A stretch of 64,000 nucleotides of DNA from Halorubrum cibi. GTDB taxonomy: Archaea; Halobacteriota; Halobacteria; Halobacteriales; Haloferacaceae. The stretch spans positions 1 to 64,000 of the forward strand of contig NZ_FXTD01000007.1 in assembly GCF_900182635.1 (NCBI RefSeq). The letters run 5' to 3'. The number at the start of each line of letters is the position of its first letter. Within the stretch, counting starts at the first letter, position 1. The position numbers were made by a program, and so were the translations under genes. Shown piece after piece: positions 152-17,815 of the stretch. Under the pieces are notes generated by a model that was given only the letters and a program-made list of their open reading frames with translations, was not told the DNA's origin and made no database searches.

Positions 152-649
152 ATGCGCGACGAATACGTCACGTCCGAGACCAACCTCCCGCCCGATCCCG
201 AACAGGGGGAGGTCAGCATTCAGGTGACCGACGCCGAGACGAAGGAGATCTTCAGCACGCGAGCGTACGTGAGTCGGGACGCCGCGGAGCTGTCCGACCC
301 GGTCCCGCTGACGGTCGTCAGCGGCCCCCACGAGAACACCGAGGAGCAGTGGTACATCGAGGTGTTGGAGACCGACATCGACGCGGAGGGGGTCGACAGG
401 GAGACGCTCGAACGGGTGATGGAGGAGACCGCCGAGGGCGCGAACGTGATCAACACGCGCTCCGACGAGGTGAAGACGCTCCTGGCGTATCTCGTCGAAG
501 CGGGAGTCTACTCCTCCATTTCGGAGGCCAGCCGCAAGGTGATGTACGAACACCTCTCCGAGCGCTACCCGGAACTCGTCAACGAGTACGTCGACCTGAA
601 GGTACAGCGCGAGCAACGCGAGTTGACGGGCGGGAGCGACGGCGGATGA
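152..649 (+). CDS. Small acidic protein of unknown function, first gene of the UbiD operon
   Basis: The gene encodes 165 residues, acidic, without signal peptide or membrane segment. I do not recognise the family. The N-terminal half is beta-like and polar; the C-terminal half (about residues 105-160) is helical, with a stretch YSSISEASRKVMYEHLSERY that could be a dimerisation or helix-turn-helix-like segment, but this is weak. Its stop overlaps the ATG of the UbiD decarboxylase gene (ATGA at 646-649), so the two are translationally coupled. A TATA-like AATACTTTA at 111-119 gives a leader of only about 10 nt. The coupling suggests an accessory role or subunit for the decarboxylase. Confidence 0.75.
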   Translation: MRDEYVTSETNLPPDPEQGEVSIQVTDAETKEIFSTRAYVSRDAAELSDPVPLTVVSGPHENTEEQWYIEVLETDIDAEGVDRETLERVMEETAEGANVINTRSDEVKTLLAYLVEAGVYSSISEASRKVMYEHLSERYPELVNEYVDLKVQREQRELTGGSDGG

Positions 650-2148
650 CGGTCGACGGCTTCCGCGGGTACCTCCGACGGATCGAGGCGCGGGACGAAC
701 TCGTACGCGTCGACGAACCCGTGTCGTGGAACCTGGAGGCGAGCGCGCTCACGATGCTCGCGAACGAGAACGACGGCCCCATCCCCTTCTTCGAGGCGGC
801 GGACGGCGCGCGGCTCGTGGGGGATCCCTACCGCGGCTCACAGCGCCGCCCGTGGGACCGGATCGCCCTCGGGATGGACATCCCTCCGGACGCCTCGAGC
901 CGGGAGTTCTACGACGAGACGATCCGGCGGCTCAAAGAGCAGCGGCCGCCGGAGACGGTCGATCGGACCGACGCGCCATGTAAGGAGGTGATCGAGACGG
1001 GCGAGGAGGTGGACCTGCTCGATTACCCGTGGCCGTACGTCCACGCGGGCGACGGCGGGCGGTACTCGAACCTCCACACGCTCGTGGCACCGGACCCCGA
1101 TTCGGAGTGGATAGACTACTCGTATCACCGCGTGATGGTCCACGACAGTCGGACCGCGAGCGTGCTCCTGCTCGCCGGCGAGCAGACGCCGAACCTCTTC
1201 TACTACAAGTACGAGCGGCGCGACGAGCCGATGCCGGTCGCCATCGTCGTCGGGGCCGACCCGGCGGTACAGTACAGCTCGGTGATGTGGATCCCGACGG
1301 GCAGAAGCGAGGTCTCCTTCGCCGGCGGTCTGAAGGGCACTCCGATCGACGTGGTGCCCTGCGAGACGAACGACCTCCTCGTCCCGGCCGACGCGGAGCT
1401 CGTCATCGAGGGCGAGATCGTTCCCGGCGTTCGCCGCGACGAGGGGCCATTCGGGGACTACTTCGGCTACATGCACGGGCCGCGGCGGTCGATGCCCGCT
1501 CTCGAGGTGACGGCGATCACCCGCCGGGCGGACCCGATCATCCCGTTCTGTGTCGAGGGAACGGGCGTGGGGCACACGGAGAACTCCACCAGCTCGATGG
1601 AGATCGGCTGTGTCGGGCCGGACGCGACGCTCGGGCTGCGCGCCGGCGGGTTCGACGTGGACCGCTGTGTCCCCTGGCAGTCGACGCCGCGGACCGTCTA
1701 CGTCATCTCGACCGACGCGACGGACCCCGGCGAGCTCCACGACCTGGCGAACTTCATCTTCACCACCTGGGGCATGCTCCACGTCGACTTCTTCGTGTTC
1801 GTCGACGGCGACGTCGACCCGCTCGACCAGCGCGCCGTGCTGGAGGCGCTCGCACTACACGCGGACCCCGACGAGGACTTCCACCAGTTCGGCGTCGCGT
1901 CGATGCCGAAGGTGCCGCTCAACATCTACCAGACGCCCGACGAGAAGGGGAACGCCCAGACGGGCACCTCGAAGGCGAAGACCGCCAAGGCGTACATCGA
2001 CGCCACCCGCGACCGCGACGACGACGCGGAGGCGGCCGCGGAGGTGGCCGACGAGGAGACGCGGTACTGGGCGCGGACCCTGCTCGTCGAGGCCGGCGCG
2101 AGCCCCGAGGGACTGCCGGGGATCGATCCGGCGGAGGTCGAGCCGTGA
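646..2148 (+). CDS. UbiD-family prenylated-FMN-dependent decarboxylase
   Basis: The 500-residue product has the full UbiD length. The family catalyses reversible (de)carboxylation of aromatic or alpha,beta-unsaturated acids using prenylated FMN made by UbiX (no ubiX in this window). The catalytic signature EGPFGDYFGY starts at E266; in characterised UbiD/Fdc enzymes the acidic pair and a conserved Arg surround prFMN. Here the second acid is Asp (D271), an accepted variant. The start is the ATG at 646 that overlaps the upstream stop; the reading frame stays open further 5' but that part reads as an off-frame shadow. It overlaps the next UbiD-like gene by 4 bp (GTGA), pointing to a heteromeric enzyme. 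The substrate is probably an aromatic acid, judged from the surrounding catabolic genes. Confidence 0.9.
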   Translation: MTVDGFRGYLRRIEARDELVRVDEPVSWNLEASALTMLANENDGPIPFFEAADGARLVGDPYRGSQRRPWDRIALGMDIPPDASSREFYDETIRRLKEQRPPETVDRTDAPCKEVIETGEEVDLLDYPWPYVHAGDGGRYSNLHTLVAPDPDSEWIDYSYHRVMVHDSRTASVLLLAGEQTPNLFYYKYERRDEPMPVAIVVGADPAVQYSSVMWIPTGRSEVSFAGGLKGTPIDVVPCETNDLLVPADAELVIEGEIVPGVRRDEGPFGDYFGYMHGPRRSMPALEVTAITRRADPIIPFCVEGTGVGHTENSTSSMEIGCVGPDATLGLRAGGFDVDRCVPWQSTPRTVYVISTDATDPGELHDLANFIFTTWGMLHVDFFVFVDGDVDPLDQRAVLEALALHADPDEDFHQFGVASMPKVPLNIYQTPDEKGNAQTGTSKAKTAKAYIDATRDRDDDAEAAAEVADEETRYWARTLLVEAGASPEGLPGIDPAEVEP

Positions 2149-3590
2149 CGACCCTCTCCGAGCACCTCGCCGACCTCCGGGAGCGGGACGACCTCCTCGA
2201 GATCGGGTTGCGGGTCCACTGGGACACCGAGGCGGCGGTCGTCGCGACGGAGGCGCTCGCACACAACTGCGCCGCGCTCCGGTTCGACGAGACCGCGGGT
2301 CGAGTCGCGTACGCGAGCGGCGTCTACGCCGGTCCCGATCAGATCTCCGGACGGGAGAACCGTCCGTGGCGACGGATCGCCGCCGGCCTCGGGCTCGGCC
2401 ACGACGTCGGCTGCGTCGACCTACTCGACGTGCTCTCGCGATGGGAGACGACCCCGCTCGCGGACGCGGTCTCTCTCGACCCGGCCGCCGACCGTGACGC
2501 CGGGGACGACCTCTACGCGCTCGGCCTCCCCGGCGTCGACGACGACGGGAGACAGGGGGTCACCCAGGGCATCGTCGCGGTCGAGCGCGACGACACCACG
2601 ACGTGGGCTCCGGTCCGGGGCACCGTTCACCGCGGCTCGACGCTCAGAGTGGTCGTTCCCCGCGCCGTCGGCGAGTGGTTCGAGGGCGGGCAGGCCGCGA
2701 GCGTGTCCCTCGGCGTCGAGGCCGCGACGCTCGTCGCCGCGCTTCAGGGGTGGACGCAGGACCGGACCGTCCCCGCCGTGCCCGAGCGTGCCGCCGGGCT
2801 CGCGGACGTCCCGCTCGCACGGGTCGACGGGCGGATCGTGCCGGCGAGCGCGGAGGTGCGGATCGACGGCGTCGCCGCCCCGACCGACGAGCCGGTGTCC
2901 GGCCCGGAGGCGACCTGGGAGCGGGCGACCGAGACCGCCACGCTCTCGTTCGAGGCCGAGGGGATCCGGCTCCGGGAGGACCCGACGGTACCGTTCGTCC
3001 CGCTCGGCGCGCCGCTCGCGGACGACGTCCACCTGATGAGCCTCGTCGAGGCGGCGACGCTGTACCGCCGCGTCAACGGCTACTGGGGGGTTTCGCCGGT
3101 GTCGTGGGTACAGCTCCCCGTCGAGAGCCGGCTCGGCCTCTGTCTCGTCTCGAGTGAGATCCTGTACGCCGGCTTCGACTGGCAGCTCGCGAACGCGCTG
3201 TTCTCGTTTTCCGACTACTTCGACAAGGTGCTCGTGTTGGACGAGTACGCGCGGCCGACCGACCTCGCCCGCGCGCTCGACGACATGTGGGTGAAGGCGC
3301 ACCCGGGCAACGACTGGGTGTTCAGCGACCCCAACGCCCCGGCGGCGACCGCGCCGGTCTACCGCCGTGACGGGGCGACCGGGTCGCGGCTGTACATCAG
3401 CGCCATCTGGGACCCCCGGTGGGACGAGGACTACATCGCGCCGCGGGTCACCTTCGAGTCCTCCTTCCCGGATGGCGTCCGCGAGTCCGCGCTCGAGCGG
3501 TGGGAGTCGCTCACGGCGGACGATGAACCCGAGGGCGGGCCGTCGTCGTCGGGGAGCGACGACCTCGCGTCCGGGGGTGACGGCGCGTGA
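2145..3590 (+). CDS. Divergent UbiD-family protein, partner of the upstream UbiD
   Basis: A GTG start inside the upstream stop (2145-2148) gives 481 residues. Overall length, the N-terminal LADLRERDDLLEI and the SGRENRPWRRIA block match UbiD folds, and the C-terminal region (GNDWVFSDPNAP, SRLYISAIWDPRW) matches UbiD C-termini. The catalytic EGPFG motif is not conserved: the corresponding segment from E249 reads EPVSGP. I infer a non-catalytic or altered subunit paired with the preceding intact UbiD; heteromeric UbiD-like subunits are known, for example in phenylphosphate carboxylase. It is followed by a metallo-beta-lactamase gene with another 4-bp overlap, so four genes form one tightly coupled operon. 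Confidence 0.8.
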   Translation: MTTLSEHLADLRERDDLLEIGLRVHWDTEAAVVATEALAHNCAALRFDETAGRVAYASGVYAGPDQISGRENRPWRRIAAGLGLGHDVGCVDLLDVLSRWETTPLADAVSLDPAADRDAGDDLYALGLPGVDDDGRQGVTQGIVAVERDDTTTWAPVRGTVHRGSTLRVVVPRAVGEWFEGGQAASVSLGVEAATLVAALQGWTQDRTVPAVPERAAGLADVPLARVDGRIVPASAEVRIDGVAAPTDEPVSGPEATWERATETATLSFEAEGIRLREDPTVPFVPLGAPLADDVHLMSLVEAATLYRRVNGYWGVSPVSWVQLPVESRLGLCLVSSEILYAGFDWQLANALFSFSDYFDKVLVLDEYARPTDLARALDDMWVKAHPGNDWVFSDPNAPAATAPVYRRDGATGSRLYISAIWDPRWDEDYIAPRVTFESSFPDGVRESALERWESLTADDEPEGGPSSSGSDDLASGGDGA

Positions 3591-13655: not shown

Positions 13656-14576
13656 TTACACCTGCACGCTCACTTCGCCGGACTGGATCATGTTCACGTA
13701 CTTCTCGTTGGCCGGTCCGCGGTTCCGCCAGCGGTCGATGACGTCGTCCCAGGAGATCGGCTCGTCGAAGCGCCACTCCTTGTTCTCCTGGTCGAACGCG
13801 ACCGGCATGTCGTACTCGAGGACGTACTCGTCGGCCTCCTCGTCGTAGTGGGCCGGCACGTCGAGGTCGAGCTCCTCCATCAGCGGGAGGGTCCGCGAGA
13901 GCCAGTCCTGTCTGAGCTCGTCGTTCGACTTGCCCTTGATGCGGTAGTCGAGCTGCTCGGTGTTGCGCTTCTGGTCGTCGGACATGCCGAACCACTCGAC
14001 GCCCATGGGGAACATCCAGTCGACGGCGTCCTGGAGCCGCTCGTGGGTCTTGTCGCTCTTGTTGGACAGCCGGCGCATCCAGGTCTCCCCGTGCCGGAGG
14101 TGGAACTGCTCCTCCTTCTCGACTTTCGTCAGCGCGCGCTTCCAGGGCGCGTACGACGTGTTCTCGTAGATGTCGCCGAGCAGGACCATCCCGGCGCGGT
14201 CGAAGATGCCGTGGGCGGTCACGAGCTCCGCGAAGTTCTCGAGGTGCTGGTCGAACCCGTACGTGTTCCGGAACTCGTGGGGTTCGCGCTCGTAGATCAA
14301 TTCTTGGCGGTCCTCGCCGAGGTCCTCGAGCAGGCGGTAGGCGATGTGGCCGTGGCCGAGCTCGTCCTGGACGACGCTGATACACGACGCGCGGGCGTCG
14401 ATCGAGGGCGCGTTCAGTGACTGGTCGTAGTAGGCGGGCGCGCTCATCAACTCGGTGTCCCCCGAGACGAGCAGGATCCGCTTGAGGGCCTTCTTGTAGC
14501 CCTCCGTCATCTCCTCCTCGGATTCGATCATCTTGCCGTTCTGAAGCTGCTTTTTCAACTGTTTCTCTGTAGGCAT
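13656..14576 (-). CDS. paaA: 1,2-phenylacetyl-CoA epoxidase catalytic subunit PaaA
   Basis: The 306-residue diiron oxygenase subunit has the expected carboxylate/histidine ligands: E72-x2-H75 in DELGHGH and E156-x2-H159 in EKEEQFHLRHGE, with E42 and E117 as likely partners. PaaA with PaaC forms the core that epoxidises the CoA-bound aromatic ring using O2 and reductant. First gene of the five-gene paa operon. A TATA-like ATTATAAT at 14612-14619 lies ~40 bp upstream, and a GTATAC-type palindromic sequence sits just beyond it, so regulation at this promoter is likely. Divergent from an acetyltransferase gene followed by a ferredoxin gene. Confidence 0.95.
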   Translation of the reverse strand: MPTEKQLKKQLQNGKMIESEEEMTEGYKKALKRILLVSGDTELMSAPAYYDQSLNAPSIDARASCISVVQDELGHGHIAYRLLEDLGEDRQELIYEREPHEFRNTYGFDQHLENFAELVTAHGIFDRAGMVLLGDIYENTSYAPWKRALTKVEKEEQFHLRHGETWMRRLSNKSDKTHERLQDAVDWMFPMGVEWFGMSDDQKRNTEQLDYRIKGKSNDELRQDWLSRTLPLMEELDLDVPAHYDEEADEYVLEYDMPVAFDQENKEWRFDEPISWDDVIDRWRNRGPANEKYVNMIQSGEVSVQV

Positions 14577-14627
14577 TGTCGGATCGACTGATTGACCGTT
14601 CGGAGGCCAGCATTATAATTGTTTTCT

Positions 14628-14647
14628 GTATACGATTCGCGTATCGA
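14628..14647. promoter_or_regulatory. Candidate operator upstream of paaA (GTATAC-type)
   Basis: GTATACGATTCGCGTATCGA lies about 9 bp upstream of the paaA TATA-like element (reading leftward), at the position of an activator or BRE-competing repressor. Its left half matches the GTATACGA half of three near-identical sites in 15764-16147; the right half is degenerate (CGTATCG rather than GTATAC). Confidence 0.5.
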
Positions 14648-14743: not shown

Positions 14744-15238
14744 ATGGCATACGAGGTGCGACACGCGACGAGCGAGGATGCGGAGGACCTGATCGAACTC
14801 TGGCACGGGTTCACCGATCACCTCTCCGAGTACGACGACCGGTACCGCCACAAGGAGAACGCGGACGAGCGCTGGATCCGCTACTTCGAGAACCAGCTCG
14901 TCGACTCCAAGTACGGCACCGTCGTCGTCGCGGAGGAGTCGTCGTCGGGGGAGCTGATCGGCGTCCTCGAGGCCCGCGTGATGGGCGATCACCCGATCTT
15001 CCGGCTCCAGGACCACGGCTACATCAACGGCCACTACGTCGACCCCGACCACCGCGGCCAGGGCGTCGGGAAGGCGCTCCTGGAGACGGCCGACGAGTGG
15101 TTCTCCGGGCCGCCCCACGAGGTGGAGTTCTTCCGCATCGACGTGCTCGAGGGCGACGACGAGGCCGCCGAACTGTACGAGGAGCTCGGCTTCGAGCCGG
15201 TCGAACACGTCTACGAGACGTCTGCGGGGAACCGGTAG
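14744..15238 (+). CDS. GNAT-family N-acetyltransferase
   Basis: The 164-residue protein has the acetyl-CoA-binding motif A (VDPDHRGQGVGKALLE) and the C-terminal AAELYEELGFEPVE block of GNAT enzymes. The substrate is unknown. It shares a promoter region with paaA and is followed after 6 bp by the ferredoxin gene, so it is embedded in the paa locus, though its role in aromatic degradation is not evident. Confidence 0.88.
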   Translation: MAYEVRHATSEDAEDLIELWHGFTDHLSEYDDRYRHKENADERWIRYFENQLVDSKYGTVVVAEESSSGELIGVLEARVMGDHPIFRLQDHGYINGHYVDPDHRGQGVGKALLETADEWFSGPPHEVEFFRIDVLEGDDEAAELYEELGFEPVEHVYETSAGNR

Positions 15239-15244
15239 AGCGCC

Positions 15245-15529
15245 ATGGTAGAGACGTACACGGTCGAGCTCGTCGACCGCGGGAAGACGATCGAGGTGCC
15301 GGCCGACAAGTCCATTCTGGAGGCGGCCGAAGAGATCGGCATCGACCTCCCCTACCAGTGTCGAATGGGCGTCTGCGGCGTCTGCTCGGCGAAGTGTGAG
15401 GGCGACGGCGAGGTCGATCAGACCGAGGGGATGTTCCTCTCCGACGGCGAGAAGGAGGAGGGGTACGTGTTGACCTGTATCGGTCGTCCCCTCTCGGATC
15501 TGAAGCTACAGACGGACGAGAGTCCCTGA
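15245..15529 (+). CDS. Plant-type 2Fe-2S ferredoxin, likely electron donor to the Paa epoxidase
   Basis: The 94-residue protein carries the cluster ligands C39-x4-C44-x2-C47-x30-C78, typical of plant-type and PaaE-domain ferredoxins. Bacterial PaaE fuses such a domain to an FAD/NAD reductase; no reductase domain is encoded in this locus. I infer that this stand-alone ferredoxin feeds electrons to PaaAC, with a reductase elsewhere. It lies 6 bp after the acetyltransferase stop. Confidence 0.9.
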   Translation: MVETYTVELVDRGKTIEVPADKSILEAAEEIGIDLPYQCRMGVCGVCSAKCEGDGEVDQTEGMFLSDGEKEEGYVLTCIGRPLSDLKLQTDESP

Positions 15530-15763
15530 AGTCTCCGACCGTTTCCGGATCGTCTTCTCCCGTTTCGACTCCGCCTCCCGACAGCCTTCGGTTCTTCTCT
15601 ACCCATCGAACTCCGGCAGGCGGGGTATCCCGTCGATCGATCCCGTGCGATGCGGGGCACGTCGTACTCCGGGATCTTCCCCTCTCCGTGTCGTCAACGT
15701 CTCACGTCGTGTATGCGTGGCGCTTCCATGGAGGTCCCGGACCGTGAGGCTCGTTCGATGTGT

Positions 15764-15781
15764 GTATACGATATTGTATAC
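15764..15781. promoter_or_regulatory. GTATAC-N6-GTATAC site 1
   Basis: GTATACGATATTGTATAC: two GTATAC hexamers 12 bp apart, i.e. about one helical turn, on the same face of DNA. Same architecture as sites 2 and 3. Confidence 0.6.
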
Positions 15782-15810
15782 AGAATTCGAATACGCCATC
15801 GGGGCAATTG

Positions 15811-15833
15811 TAACACGGGCTAAGTGTGTGTTA
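15811..15833. promoter_or_regulatory. TAACAC-N11-GTGTTA palindrome, copy 1
   Basis: Arms TAACAC (15811-15816) and GTGTTA (15828-15833). Over 25 aligned bases it matches copy 2 at about 19, including the spacer core CT-AGT, so the two are copies of one site type 49 bp apart. Confidence 0.5.
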
Positions 15834-15859
15834 TAACTGGGATCCGCGCGAGATCGTCG

Positions 15860-15882
15860 TGACACGGACTTAGTTCGTGTTA
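15860..15882. promoter_or_regulatory. TGACAC-N11-GTGTTA palindrome, copy 2
   Basis: Arms TGACAC (15860-15865) and GTGTTA (15877-15882), same spacing as copy 1. Could be a paired operator for a dimeric regulator different from the one reading the GTATAC sites. Confidence 0.5.
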
Positions 15883-15975
15883 CACTTGCGTGTCGGATCC
15901 CGTTCCGCCCAGATCCCGTCCGATATCCGTCCTCGAAGGACGATCGTTCACAGATCTCGCATCTCTCATAAATTC

Positions 15976-15993
15976 GTATACGATTACGTATAC
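15976..15993. promoter_or_regulatory. GTATAC-N6-GTATAC site 2
   Basis: GTATACGATTACGTATAC; with one flanking base on each side the two halves become identical 8-bp palindromes CGTATACG separated by 4 bp. The most regular of the three sites. Confidence 0.6.
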
Positions 15994-16129
15994 GGCCATA
16001 TCCGTGGCTTTAGGCCGTTTTAGGCGGCATTCTCTCGAAGATACGTGGCTCGAGAACGTGGATTCCATCGCCCGATCGAGCGTTCCGCGACGATCGTGTG
16101 CGATCGCCGACTCGTCGCTCGAGATCGGA

Positions 16130-16147
16130 GTATACGAGATCGTATAC
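16130..16147. promoter_or_regulatory. GTATAC-N6-GTATAC site 3
   Basis: GTATACGAGATCGTATAC, same 12-bp half-site spacing, 46 bp beyond the 3' end of the aryl-CoA ligase gene. Confidence 0.6.
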
Positions 16148-16192
16148 GCGCACCTGGCGGGCGAAACGAGAAAACGGCGGAACGAGAGCCGA

Positions 16193-17815
16193 CTACTCGC
16201 GCAGTTCCTTCCGGCGGATCTTGCCCGTCTCGGTCCGGGGCAGTTCCGTGACGAACTCGACCGCACGCGGATACTTGTACGGAGCCAGCGTGTTCTTCAC
16301 GTGGTTCTGGATCTCCTCGACGAGCTCGTCGTCGCCGGTCGTCCCCTCGGTCGTGACGACGAACGCCTTCACGATCTCGCCGCGCTGCTCGTGGGGCGCG
16401 CCCACGACGGCGACCTCGGCGACGGCCTCGTGTTCCTCCACGACGGCTTCGACCTCCGGGCCGGGGATGTTGTAGCCGCTGGAGACGATGAGGTCGTCCG
16501 CACGCGACTTGTACTCCAGCCGGCCGTCCTCCCGCTGGACGAAGATGTCGCCGGGGAACGACCAGCCGTCCTCGACCGCCTCGTCCTGCTTCTCCGGACG
16601 GTTCCAGTACTCGATGCCGGTCGGCCCGCGGACCGCGAGCATCCCCGGCTCGCCGCGCTCGCACTCCTCGCCGGTGTCCGGGTCGACGATCTTACACTCG
16701 TAGCCGGGAACCGGGAACCCGGTCGCCGTCGGGTCGACCTCGCCCTCGTGATGGTGGCTCACGAAGATGTGGAGCATCTCGGTGGTTCCGATCCCGTCGA
16801 GCAGCTTGATCCCGTATTCCTCGCGGAACTGCTCGAACGTCGTCGGCGTCAGCGGCTCGCCGGCGCTCATCCCGACCCGCAGCGAGGAGACGTCGTACTC
16901 GTCGGGCCCGTCGGGGAACTTCGCGAGCATCTGGTTGAACGCTGTCGGGATCGAACACAGCACCGAGATCCCGTGGTTCTCGACCGATTCGAGCAGGTCG
17001 CCCGGGCTCGCGTCCTGCGTCAGGCTCGTGCTCGCGCCGAACCGGAGCGGGAACGTGACGAGGTCGCCGAACCCGTACGCGAACGGCAGCGGCGGGTTGC
17101 CGCCGAACACGTCGTCCTCGGTCGGCTCGAGGCAGTACCGCGCGTACGTGTCCGCCGTCGCGAGCATCTGCCGGTGGGTGTGGATCGCCCCCTTCGGCCG
17201 CCCGGTGGTGCCGCTCGTGTACAGCATCAATGCGAGGTCGTCGCGCTCGGTGTCCGCGGCCTCGAGCTCGGGGCTCGCGGCGTCCATCAGCTCGTCGTAG
17301 CTGTGGTGGTCGTGTTCGATCCCGTTCCGCTCCGCCACGACGACGTCCTCGACGGTGTCGAGGTCGGGCAGCGCCTCGTCCACCTCGTCGAGTAGGTCGT
17401 CGTAGACGACGATCGTGGTCGCCTCGGCGTTGTTGACGATGTACCGAAGCTCCTTGGCGCGGAGCAGCTTCATCGAGGGCATGGCGACGGCCCCGATCTT
17501 CTGGACGGCGAGACACGTGATCACCGGCTCGGGGCGGTTCGGGAACCGCACCAGGACCCGGTCGCCGGACTCGACGCCGAGCTCCCGGAGCGCGTTGCCC
17601 ATCCGGTTGACCCGCTCTTGAAGCTCCTCGTAGGTGATCGTCTCGTCCTCGAAGTAGACGGCGACGTTATCTCCCCGGCCCTCGCGGACGTGGCGATCGA
17701 CGAGCTGGTCCGCGGTGTTGATCTCCCGAGGGTAGTGTGCCTCTGGGATCGGGTATACGTAATCCGGCGAGTCCGATTCGTCTGGCAGGTACTCCGTCGG
17801 GACGTTGGACTGCAT
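16193..17815 (-). CDS. Aryl-CoA ligase (benzoate/2-aminobenzoate-CoA ligase type)
   Basis: The 540-residue AMP-forming acyl-CoA synthetase has the P-loop YTSGTTGRPKG at residues 199-209, the GTTEML and YKSRADDLI motifs, and the C-terminal TGKIRRKE lysine. The PLPFAYGFGDLVTFPLRFGA region resembles 2-aminobenzoate- and benzoate-CoA ligases more than PaaK. It activates an aromatic acid to its CoA thioester, the first step before ring epoxidation. ATG 17815 is preferred over GTG 17833 because CTTAAAT at 17837-17843 lies at leaderless distance. The 3' end faces the palindrome-rich spacer. Confidence 0.9.
   Translation of the reverse strand: MQSNVPTEYLPDESDSPDYVYPIPEAHYPREINTADQLVDRHVREGRGDNVAVYFEDETITYEELQERVNRMGNALRELGVESGDRVLVRFPNRPEPVITCLAVQKIGAVAMPSMKLLRAKELRYIVNNAEATTIVVYDDLLDEVDEALPDLDTVEDVVVAERNGIEHDHHSYDELMDAASPELEAADTERDDLALMLYTSGTTGRPKGAIHTHRQMLATADTYARYCLEPTEDDVFGGNPPLPFAYGFGDLVTFPLRFGASTSLTQDASPGDLLESVENHGISVLCSIPTAFNQMLAKFPDGPDEYDVSSLRVGMSAGEPLTPTTFEQFREEYGIKLLDGIGTTEMLHIFVSHHHEGEVDPTATGFPVPGYECKIVDPDTGEECERGEPGMLAVRGPTGIEYWNRPEKQDEAVEDGWSFPGDIFVQREDGRLEYKSRADDLIVSSGYNIPGPEVEAVVEEHEAVAEVAVVGAPHEQRGEIVKAFVVTTEGTTGDDELVEEIQNHVKNTLAPYKYPRAVEFVTELPRTETGKIRRKELRE

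Follow-up and report, generated by a model that had tools for sequence, protein, structure and literature searches.

Operators of the CopG, ParD and VapB type, bound by ribbon-helix-helix (RHH) proteins, consist of short palindromic boxes that recur at intervals of roughly one helical turn. In bacterial looping systems, as exemplified by the GalR and lac operators, a promoter-near site and distal sites are bound by one protein. The bacterial phenylacetate pathway is controlled by PaaX and PaaR. For the IclR-family regulators of bacterial aromatic catabolism (PcaR, PcaU, PobR and HmgR), operators are described by the consensus groups GKTYCRYW3-4RYGRAMC and TGRAACAN1-2TGTTYCA (PMC8222616). A literature search covering titles and abstract openings returned neither GTATAC operators nor any regulatory protein or operator site for the phenylacetate (paa) islands of haloarchaea.

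We analyzed a stretch of 64,000 nucleotides from Halorubrum cibi (the window), which begins at the first base of contig NZ_FXTD01000007.1 (C7 in our genome comparisons, where the genome itself is G000). A spacer between two converging genes of the window carries a conserved composite operator-like module, which is real, and we infer its mechanism and its binders from sequence. It would have control of the paa pathway in common with PaaX and PaaR, as these are generally described, although its motifs and probable regulators appear unrelated to theirs. What we observe directly are the individual sites, their linkage to the paa island, their retention while the surrounding sequence has diverged, and a core length fixed in three species. 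On balance, we consider it probable that the spacer is a composite two-regulator control module of the phenylacetate/aryl-CoA island that works together with a box at the paaA promoter, probably from a distance.

Genes in the window were called by codon usage. The island is ordered as paaA, a divergently oriented GNAT acetyltransferase, a ferredoxin, the spacer and a converging CoA ligase (Table 1). As the spacer is bounded by two 3′ ends, the three GTATAC sites within it (A1, A2 and A3) are upstream of no called gene. The spacer is the longest of the 10 convergent spacers in the window, which have a median length of 42.5 bp. It had been described as gene-free, and indeed no open reading frame with a positive coding score is found within it; an Rfam search of the spacer gave only matches far below the gathering scores. 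On these grounds, we rejected a hidden gene or a known RNA.

Table 1. Coordinates of the features of the paa island and its control module in the window (strand "." for features without orientation).
Feature	Position	Strand	Remarks
165-aa protein, RHH-like C terminus	152..649	+	candidate A-box binder or UbiD partner
paaA, 1,2-phenylacetyl-CoA epoxidase subunit	13656..14576	-	NCBIfam TIGR02156 E=6e-38, under model cutoff
paaA TATA-like element	14612..14619	-	ATTATAAT
Putative paaA-promoter A box	14628..14645	-	GTATAC-N7-GTATC, just upstream of the TATA-like element
GNAT acetyltransferase gene	14744..15238	+	Pfam PF00583; divergent from paaA
[2Fe-2S] ferredoxin	15245..15529	+	Pfam PF00111, TIGR02008
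Gene-free spacer, 663 bp	15530..16192	.	between converging 3′ ends of ferredoxin and CoA ligase
A1	15764..15781	.	GTATAC-N6-GTATAC, exact; conserved in G038 and Halobellus captivus
A1 third box	15789..15794	+	GAATAC, 7 bp past the second GTATAC
B1′ palindrome	15811..15833	.	TAACACGGGCTAAGTGTGTGTTA; exact TAACAC-N3-CTWAG-N3-GTGTTA
B2′ palindrome	15860..15882	.	TGACACGGACTTAGTTCGTGTTA; same form, with TGACAC
A2	15976..15993	.	GTATAC-N6-GTATAC, exact
A3	16130..16147	.	GTATAC-N6-GTATAC, exact
Benzoate-CoA-ligase-type CoA ligase	16193..17815	-	PF00501; TIGR02262 above cutoff

The three A sites are where the original prediction had placed them, and they are unique. A search of the whole genome (3,176,020 bases in 35 contigs, ~99% complete) found exact GTATAC-N6-GTATAC at A1, A2 and A3 only and no match to a reversed control pattern, compared to about 0.018 exact matches per genome expected from base composition. 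The proposal that the sites are spaced for binding on one DNA face is not supported by their start distances, which at 10.5 bp per turn correspond to 20.2 turns between A1 and A2 (212 bp) and 14.7 turns between A2 and A3 (154 bp). The 6-bp spacing within each site, thought to be invariant, is so for A1, A2 and A3 but is either 6 or 7 bp across species: exact pairs upstream of paaA comprise 34 with N6 and 30 with N7, ruling out a strict N6 spacing, and the GTATAC boxes are thus 12 or 13 bp apart from centre to centre. Two elements had been missed, namely the GAATAC box that follows A1, with the same extra box in both other spacers of the putative Halobellus group, and two 23-bp palindromes (B1′ and B2′) between A1 and A2. 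The convergent orientation of the genes on either side had also escaped notice. Three boxes in a row are found in g12, f9 and Halobellus, where g and f denote our genus and family labels.

Comparisons across haloarchaea tie the A motif to paaA. We examined 47 islands, consisting of all paaA homologs found with at least 74% identity: 24 among 170 genomes of the family, and 23 from outside it. The out-of-family islands came from 36 genomes picked among 85 class-level matches of protein 152–649 and were, thus, found through that protein. Three further islands, with a paaA of ~62% identity (G087, G058 and G032), were left out of these counts, and scans of them detected no GTATAC pair. An exact pair with 6- or 7-bp spacing is located at most 2.6 kb upstream of paaA in 36 of the 47 islands, a number that rises to 42 when one mismatch is tolerated; the remaining five (four of g25, one of f3) contain no pair even at one mismatch. 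The whole genomes of the 47 paa-bearing species contain 93 exact N6 or N7 pairs, of which 64 are within 2.6 kb upstream of paaA. With only four matches to the reversed pattern in the same genomes, a general genome motif is ruled out. Within the family, the N6 pair is present in 21 of 148 genomes; it is beside paaA in 12 of the 22 sampled genomes that have a paaA of at least 74% identity, and it occurs in nine of the 126 sampled genomes lacking a close paaA. The proposed scan of the genome and of related haloarchaea thus finds the motif clustered beside paaA and rare elsewhere. Frequent occurrence without a link to promoters had been named as evidence to the contrary; the motif is infrequent, but the three A sites of the window are indeed not promoter-proximal. 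Based on these comparisons, the GTATAC sites look like putative protein-binding sites tied to the paa island.

Eight of the nine pairs in genomes without a close paaA precede a vapB-type antitoxin gene and the ninth is in G024. The vapB-type genes were recognized by their start (MSKSIRV) in the flanking sequence; those of G013, G105 and G077 were translated, and the G105 protein was scanned and matched VAPB_antitox. In other haloarchaea, GTATAC-N6-GTATAC is located just before vapB-PIN operons (L181, L183, L369 and L371), and in L179 it overlaps the called start. The antitoxin is likely to regulate its own operon through the pair preceding vapB. In G024 (L128), GTATAC-N6-GTATAC occurs three times with a period of exactly 126 bp, and we take this to be probably a tandem repeat in coding sequence. 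The A boxes resemble CopG/ParD/VapB operators in being short, palindromic and about one turn apart, in addition to sharing this pair with haloarchaeal vapB genes. Unlike these operators, they are not associated with a toxin-antitoxin operon, extend over 384 bp and have another palindrome between them. No vapB-PIN pair, as would accompany a VapB operator, is present among the called genes beside the A sites of the window.

The module is constrained in both letters and length. The block from A1 to A3 has the same length, 384 bp, in the window as in H. captivus, with 76 of 88 box positions identical compared to 141 of 296 (48%) for the remainder. Start distances are nearly unchanged between the two (window/H. 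captivus: A1–A2, 212/213; A2–A3, 154/153; A1–B1, 47/47; B1–B2, 49/49), and the A1–A3 distance from start to start is 366 bp in three of three Halobellus-group species, whereas the two outer segments of the spacer differ in length by tens of bp between the window and H. captivus. This pattern looks like selection on letters and length, and speaks against conservation of an RNA or a protein sequence. The sites could alternatively represent the promoter or operator for a small RNA or very small protein that lies unannotated within the spacer, for which the unusual length of the spacer (663 bp) and the fact that a protein gene directly follows the sites in g6 and g28 could be cited. However, we regard this as unlikely, given the 48% identity outside the boxes between two species of the group, the lack of a positive-scoring open reading frame and the lack of an Rfam match near gathering score.

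In most lineages, the module is located behind the ferredoxin gene, between converging gene ends, in many genera and several families. In g6 and g28, it immediately precedes an enoyl-CoA-hydratase or hydroxyacyl-CoA-dehydrogenase gene, and in G001 the GNAT-ferredoxin pair is inverted such that the boxes are upstream of GNAT. As its content is maintained while its place varies, action at a distance would be favoured. Because g6 and g28 have the sites before an enoyl-CoA-hydratase-type gene, the module could also be read as a relic, with operators that remained after the loss of an enoyl-CoA-hydratase operon still found behind the ferredoxin gene in other genera. We think this very unlikely, since every one of the six GTATAC boxes has been retained at its spacing although the rest has diverged, and since the module is found in gene-free convergent spacers across many genera and several families.

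Two variations in arrangement were also observed. An extra amidohydrolase-like gene (assigned by eye; fragments only in L199) between paaA and GNAT in L197 and L199 shifts the module to ~2.1 kb from paaA. Three g35 genomes contain a further A-B-A module (at ~4.2–5.2 kb of L360, L361 and L365) between the 3′ end of an acyl-CoA-dehydrogenase gene and a PAS-MCP chemoreceptor-like gene. In two of them, a single contig carries both this module and paaA, ~21–27 kb apart.

The second motif differs between lineages. As a pair, TAACAC/TGACAC-N3-CTWAG-N3-GTGTTA (B′) is found in only three of 167 family genomes (G000, G038 and G153), in each case within this spacer; two further genomes contain a single match each. 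In other lineages, the equivalent position between A arrays is occupied by ATTACA-N3-RTAY-N3-TGTAAT (B; ATTACA-N10-TGTAAT). An exact B or B′ palindrome is present in 22 of the 47 islands, and in more when one mismatch is allowed. As at least two motifs are present, there are probably two regulators; the original view of the sites as operators for one regulator of the aromatic pathway holds in its link to the paa island, but probably not in the number of regulators.

The palindromes might instead work as RNA, as a hairpin or as a bidirectional terminator of two converging transcripts, and a location between 3′ ends would suit a terminator. The segment 15804–15889 folds into a long, near-perfect hairpin (−43.7 kcal/mol, z −7.1). 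However, a palindrome present in two copies will pair as a matter of course, and the fold in H. captivus is much weaker (−25.2 kcal/mol). Furthermore, the number and spacing of B palindromes vary between lineages, the GTATAC letters are fixed rather than co-varying, and the GTTTAC-N6-GTTTAC direct-repeat variants that also exist are unable to form a stem. A role as RNA is thus very unlikely, and we favour the reading of the palindromes as protein-binding sites of the composite control module.

Genome-wide, B occurs 1 to 35 times in 28 of the 29 genomes searched, and its reversed pattern never. An IclR-family gene adjoins B in 13 of 28 fetched loci; nine of these assignments are supported by Pfam (all nine proteins scanned) and four were made by eye (L316, L317, L318 and L325). 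Three of the 28 loci are the paa modules themselves, and in two f7 islands, which are near Halobellus by paaA, an IclR gene adjoins the module. B-type palindromes at L301, L313 (G000:C4:228757), L320 and L323 adjoin genes that we take to resemble RdfA (rod-determining factor) and an SMC-like partner. The archaeal B resembles the bacterial IclR operators in being palindromic and connected with aromatic regulons, and it adjoins IclR genes. It differs from the consensus groups given in PMC8222616 in its form (TTACA-N10-TGTAA), and from the operators described there in being sandwiched between arrays of a second motif. That the IclR family works in haloarchaea is indicated by XacR, a member required for activation of xacE in Haloferax volcanii, as outlined in PMC10448506.

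The window's B′ does not conform to the TTACA-N3-RTAY-N3-TGTAA consensus, and the sole B match of this genome is located elsewhere. The f7 IclR regulator has no close ortholog in the window's genome (best E 3.2e-45), and we therefore rejected that protein as the regulator in Halobellus. Thus, B′ is probably the site of a different regulator.

A candidate for binding the A boxes is encoded near the start of the window. Within the family, protein 152–649 was found in 24 of 167 genomes, and these are exactly the genomes with a paaA of at least 74% identity. Outside the family, 36 class-level matches were tested, of which 23 are high-scoring with paaA and 13 low-scoring without it. It therefore accompanies close paaA homologs in 24 of 24 family islands and in 23 of 23 tested out-of-family islands, the latter having been selected through this protein. 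Its C terminus gave six weak PDB profile matches, four of them to ParD or CopG-type antitoxins (E 0.056–0.31), the best being ParD (E=0.056). A Pfam scan of the protein returned no significant match, profile comparison of the C terminus with the VapB set gave a probability of 0.6%, and a single-sequence AlphaFold model (pLDDT 42.8) was too poor for a fold search. An exact A site precedes the gene of a homolog in G097 and G112, and the operator-like pair before vapB genes is in line with an RHH binder; such a site is seen upstream of the homolog in only two of the 24 family genomes, the window's own upstream region being cut by the contig end. Furthermore, the gene is followed by two UbiD genes, even at loci that lack paaA, and its product may thus be an enzyme partner. 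Binding of the A boxes by this RHH-like protein, which would be compatible with the control module, is possible but doubtful. The earlier statement that no regulator gene is encoded within the island is uncertain, given a 165-aa protein with an RHH-like end, closely related copies of which occur in all 47 islands, but which may be an enzyme partner.

The arrangement of a 165-aa protein of unknown family followed by two UbiD-type genes, the second divergent in sequence, is found at 152–3590 in the window and in L372, L373, L377 and L378, and is conserved across haloarchaea with and without paaA. In G231 (L378:7300–7317), an exact GTATAC-N6-GTATAC is located behind a low-score version of this trio, between converging gene ends.

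The degenerate copy noted at the paaA promoter, near the TATA-like element, is real, but its spacing is 7 rather than 6. GTATAC occurs at the same place in 28 of the 47 islands, 14–16 bp from the TATA-like element where this was matched, in contrast to the three A sites of the window between converging 3′ ends. The other 19 islands lack this box, and some of them retain the module in the convergent spacer. In the mechanism that we propose, one oligomerising protein (regulator A) would occupy GTATAC boxes 12–13 bp apart from centre to centre, and a second protein (regulator B), probably of the IclR type in most lineages, would occupy the palindromes between them. Regulator A would also bind GTATAC-N7-GTATC at the paaA promoter, about 1.1–1.5 kb away, and the module and this box could cooperate, probably through DNA bending or looping. 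Such distal action would permit the location of the module between convergent genes. We infer the binding itself, the identities of the binders, the direction of control and the loop, the last from position only. As in the GalR and lac operators, promoter-near and distal sites would serve one putative protein. Unlike these, the system is archaeal, its distal sites are between convergent genes and its loop is proposed from position.

More tentatively, the locus might represent an enhancer-like, position-tolerant archaeal module, in which two regulators bound to a rigid A-B-A array in a convergent spacer would act over 1–2 kb on the paaA promoter, and possibly on its neighbours, via a loop to the matching box. 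The module provides precisely located sites in a conserved architecture, along with candidate regulators. Should its action prove to be distal, it would be a clean, naturally occurring example of archaeal transcription controlled over a long range.
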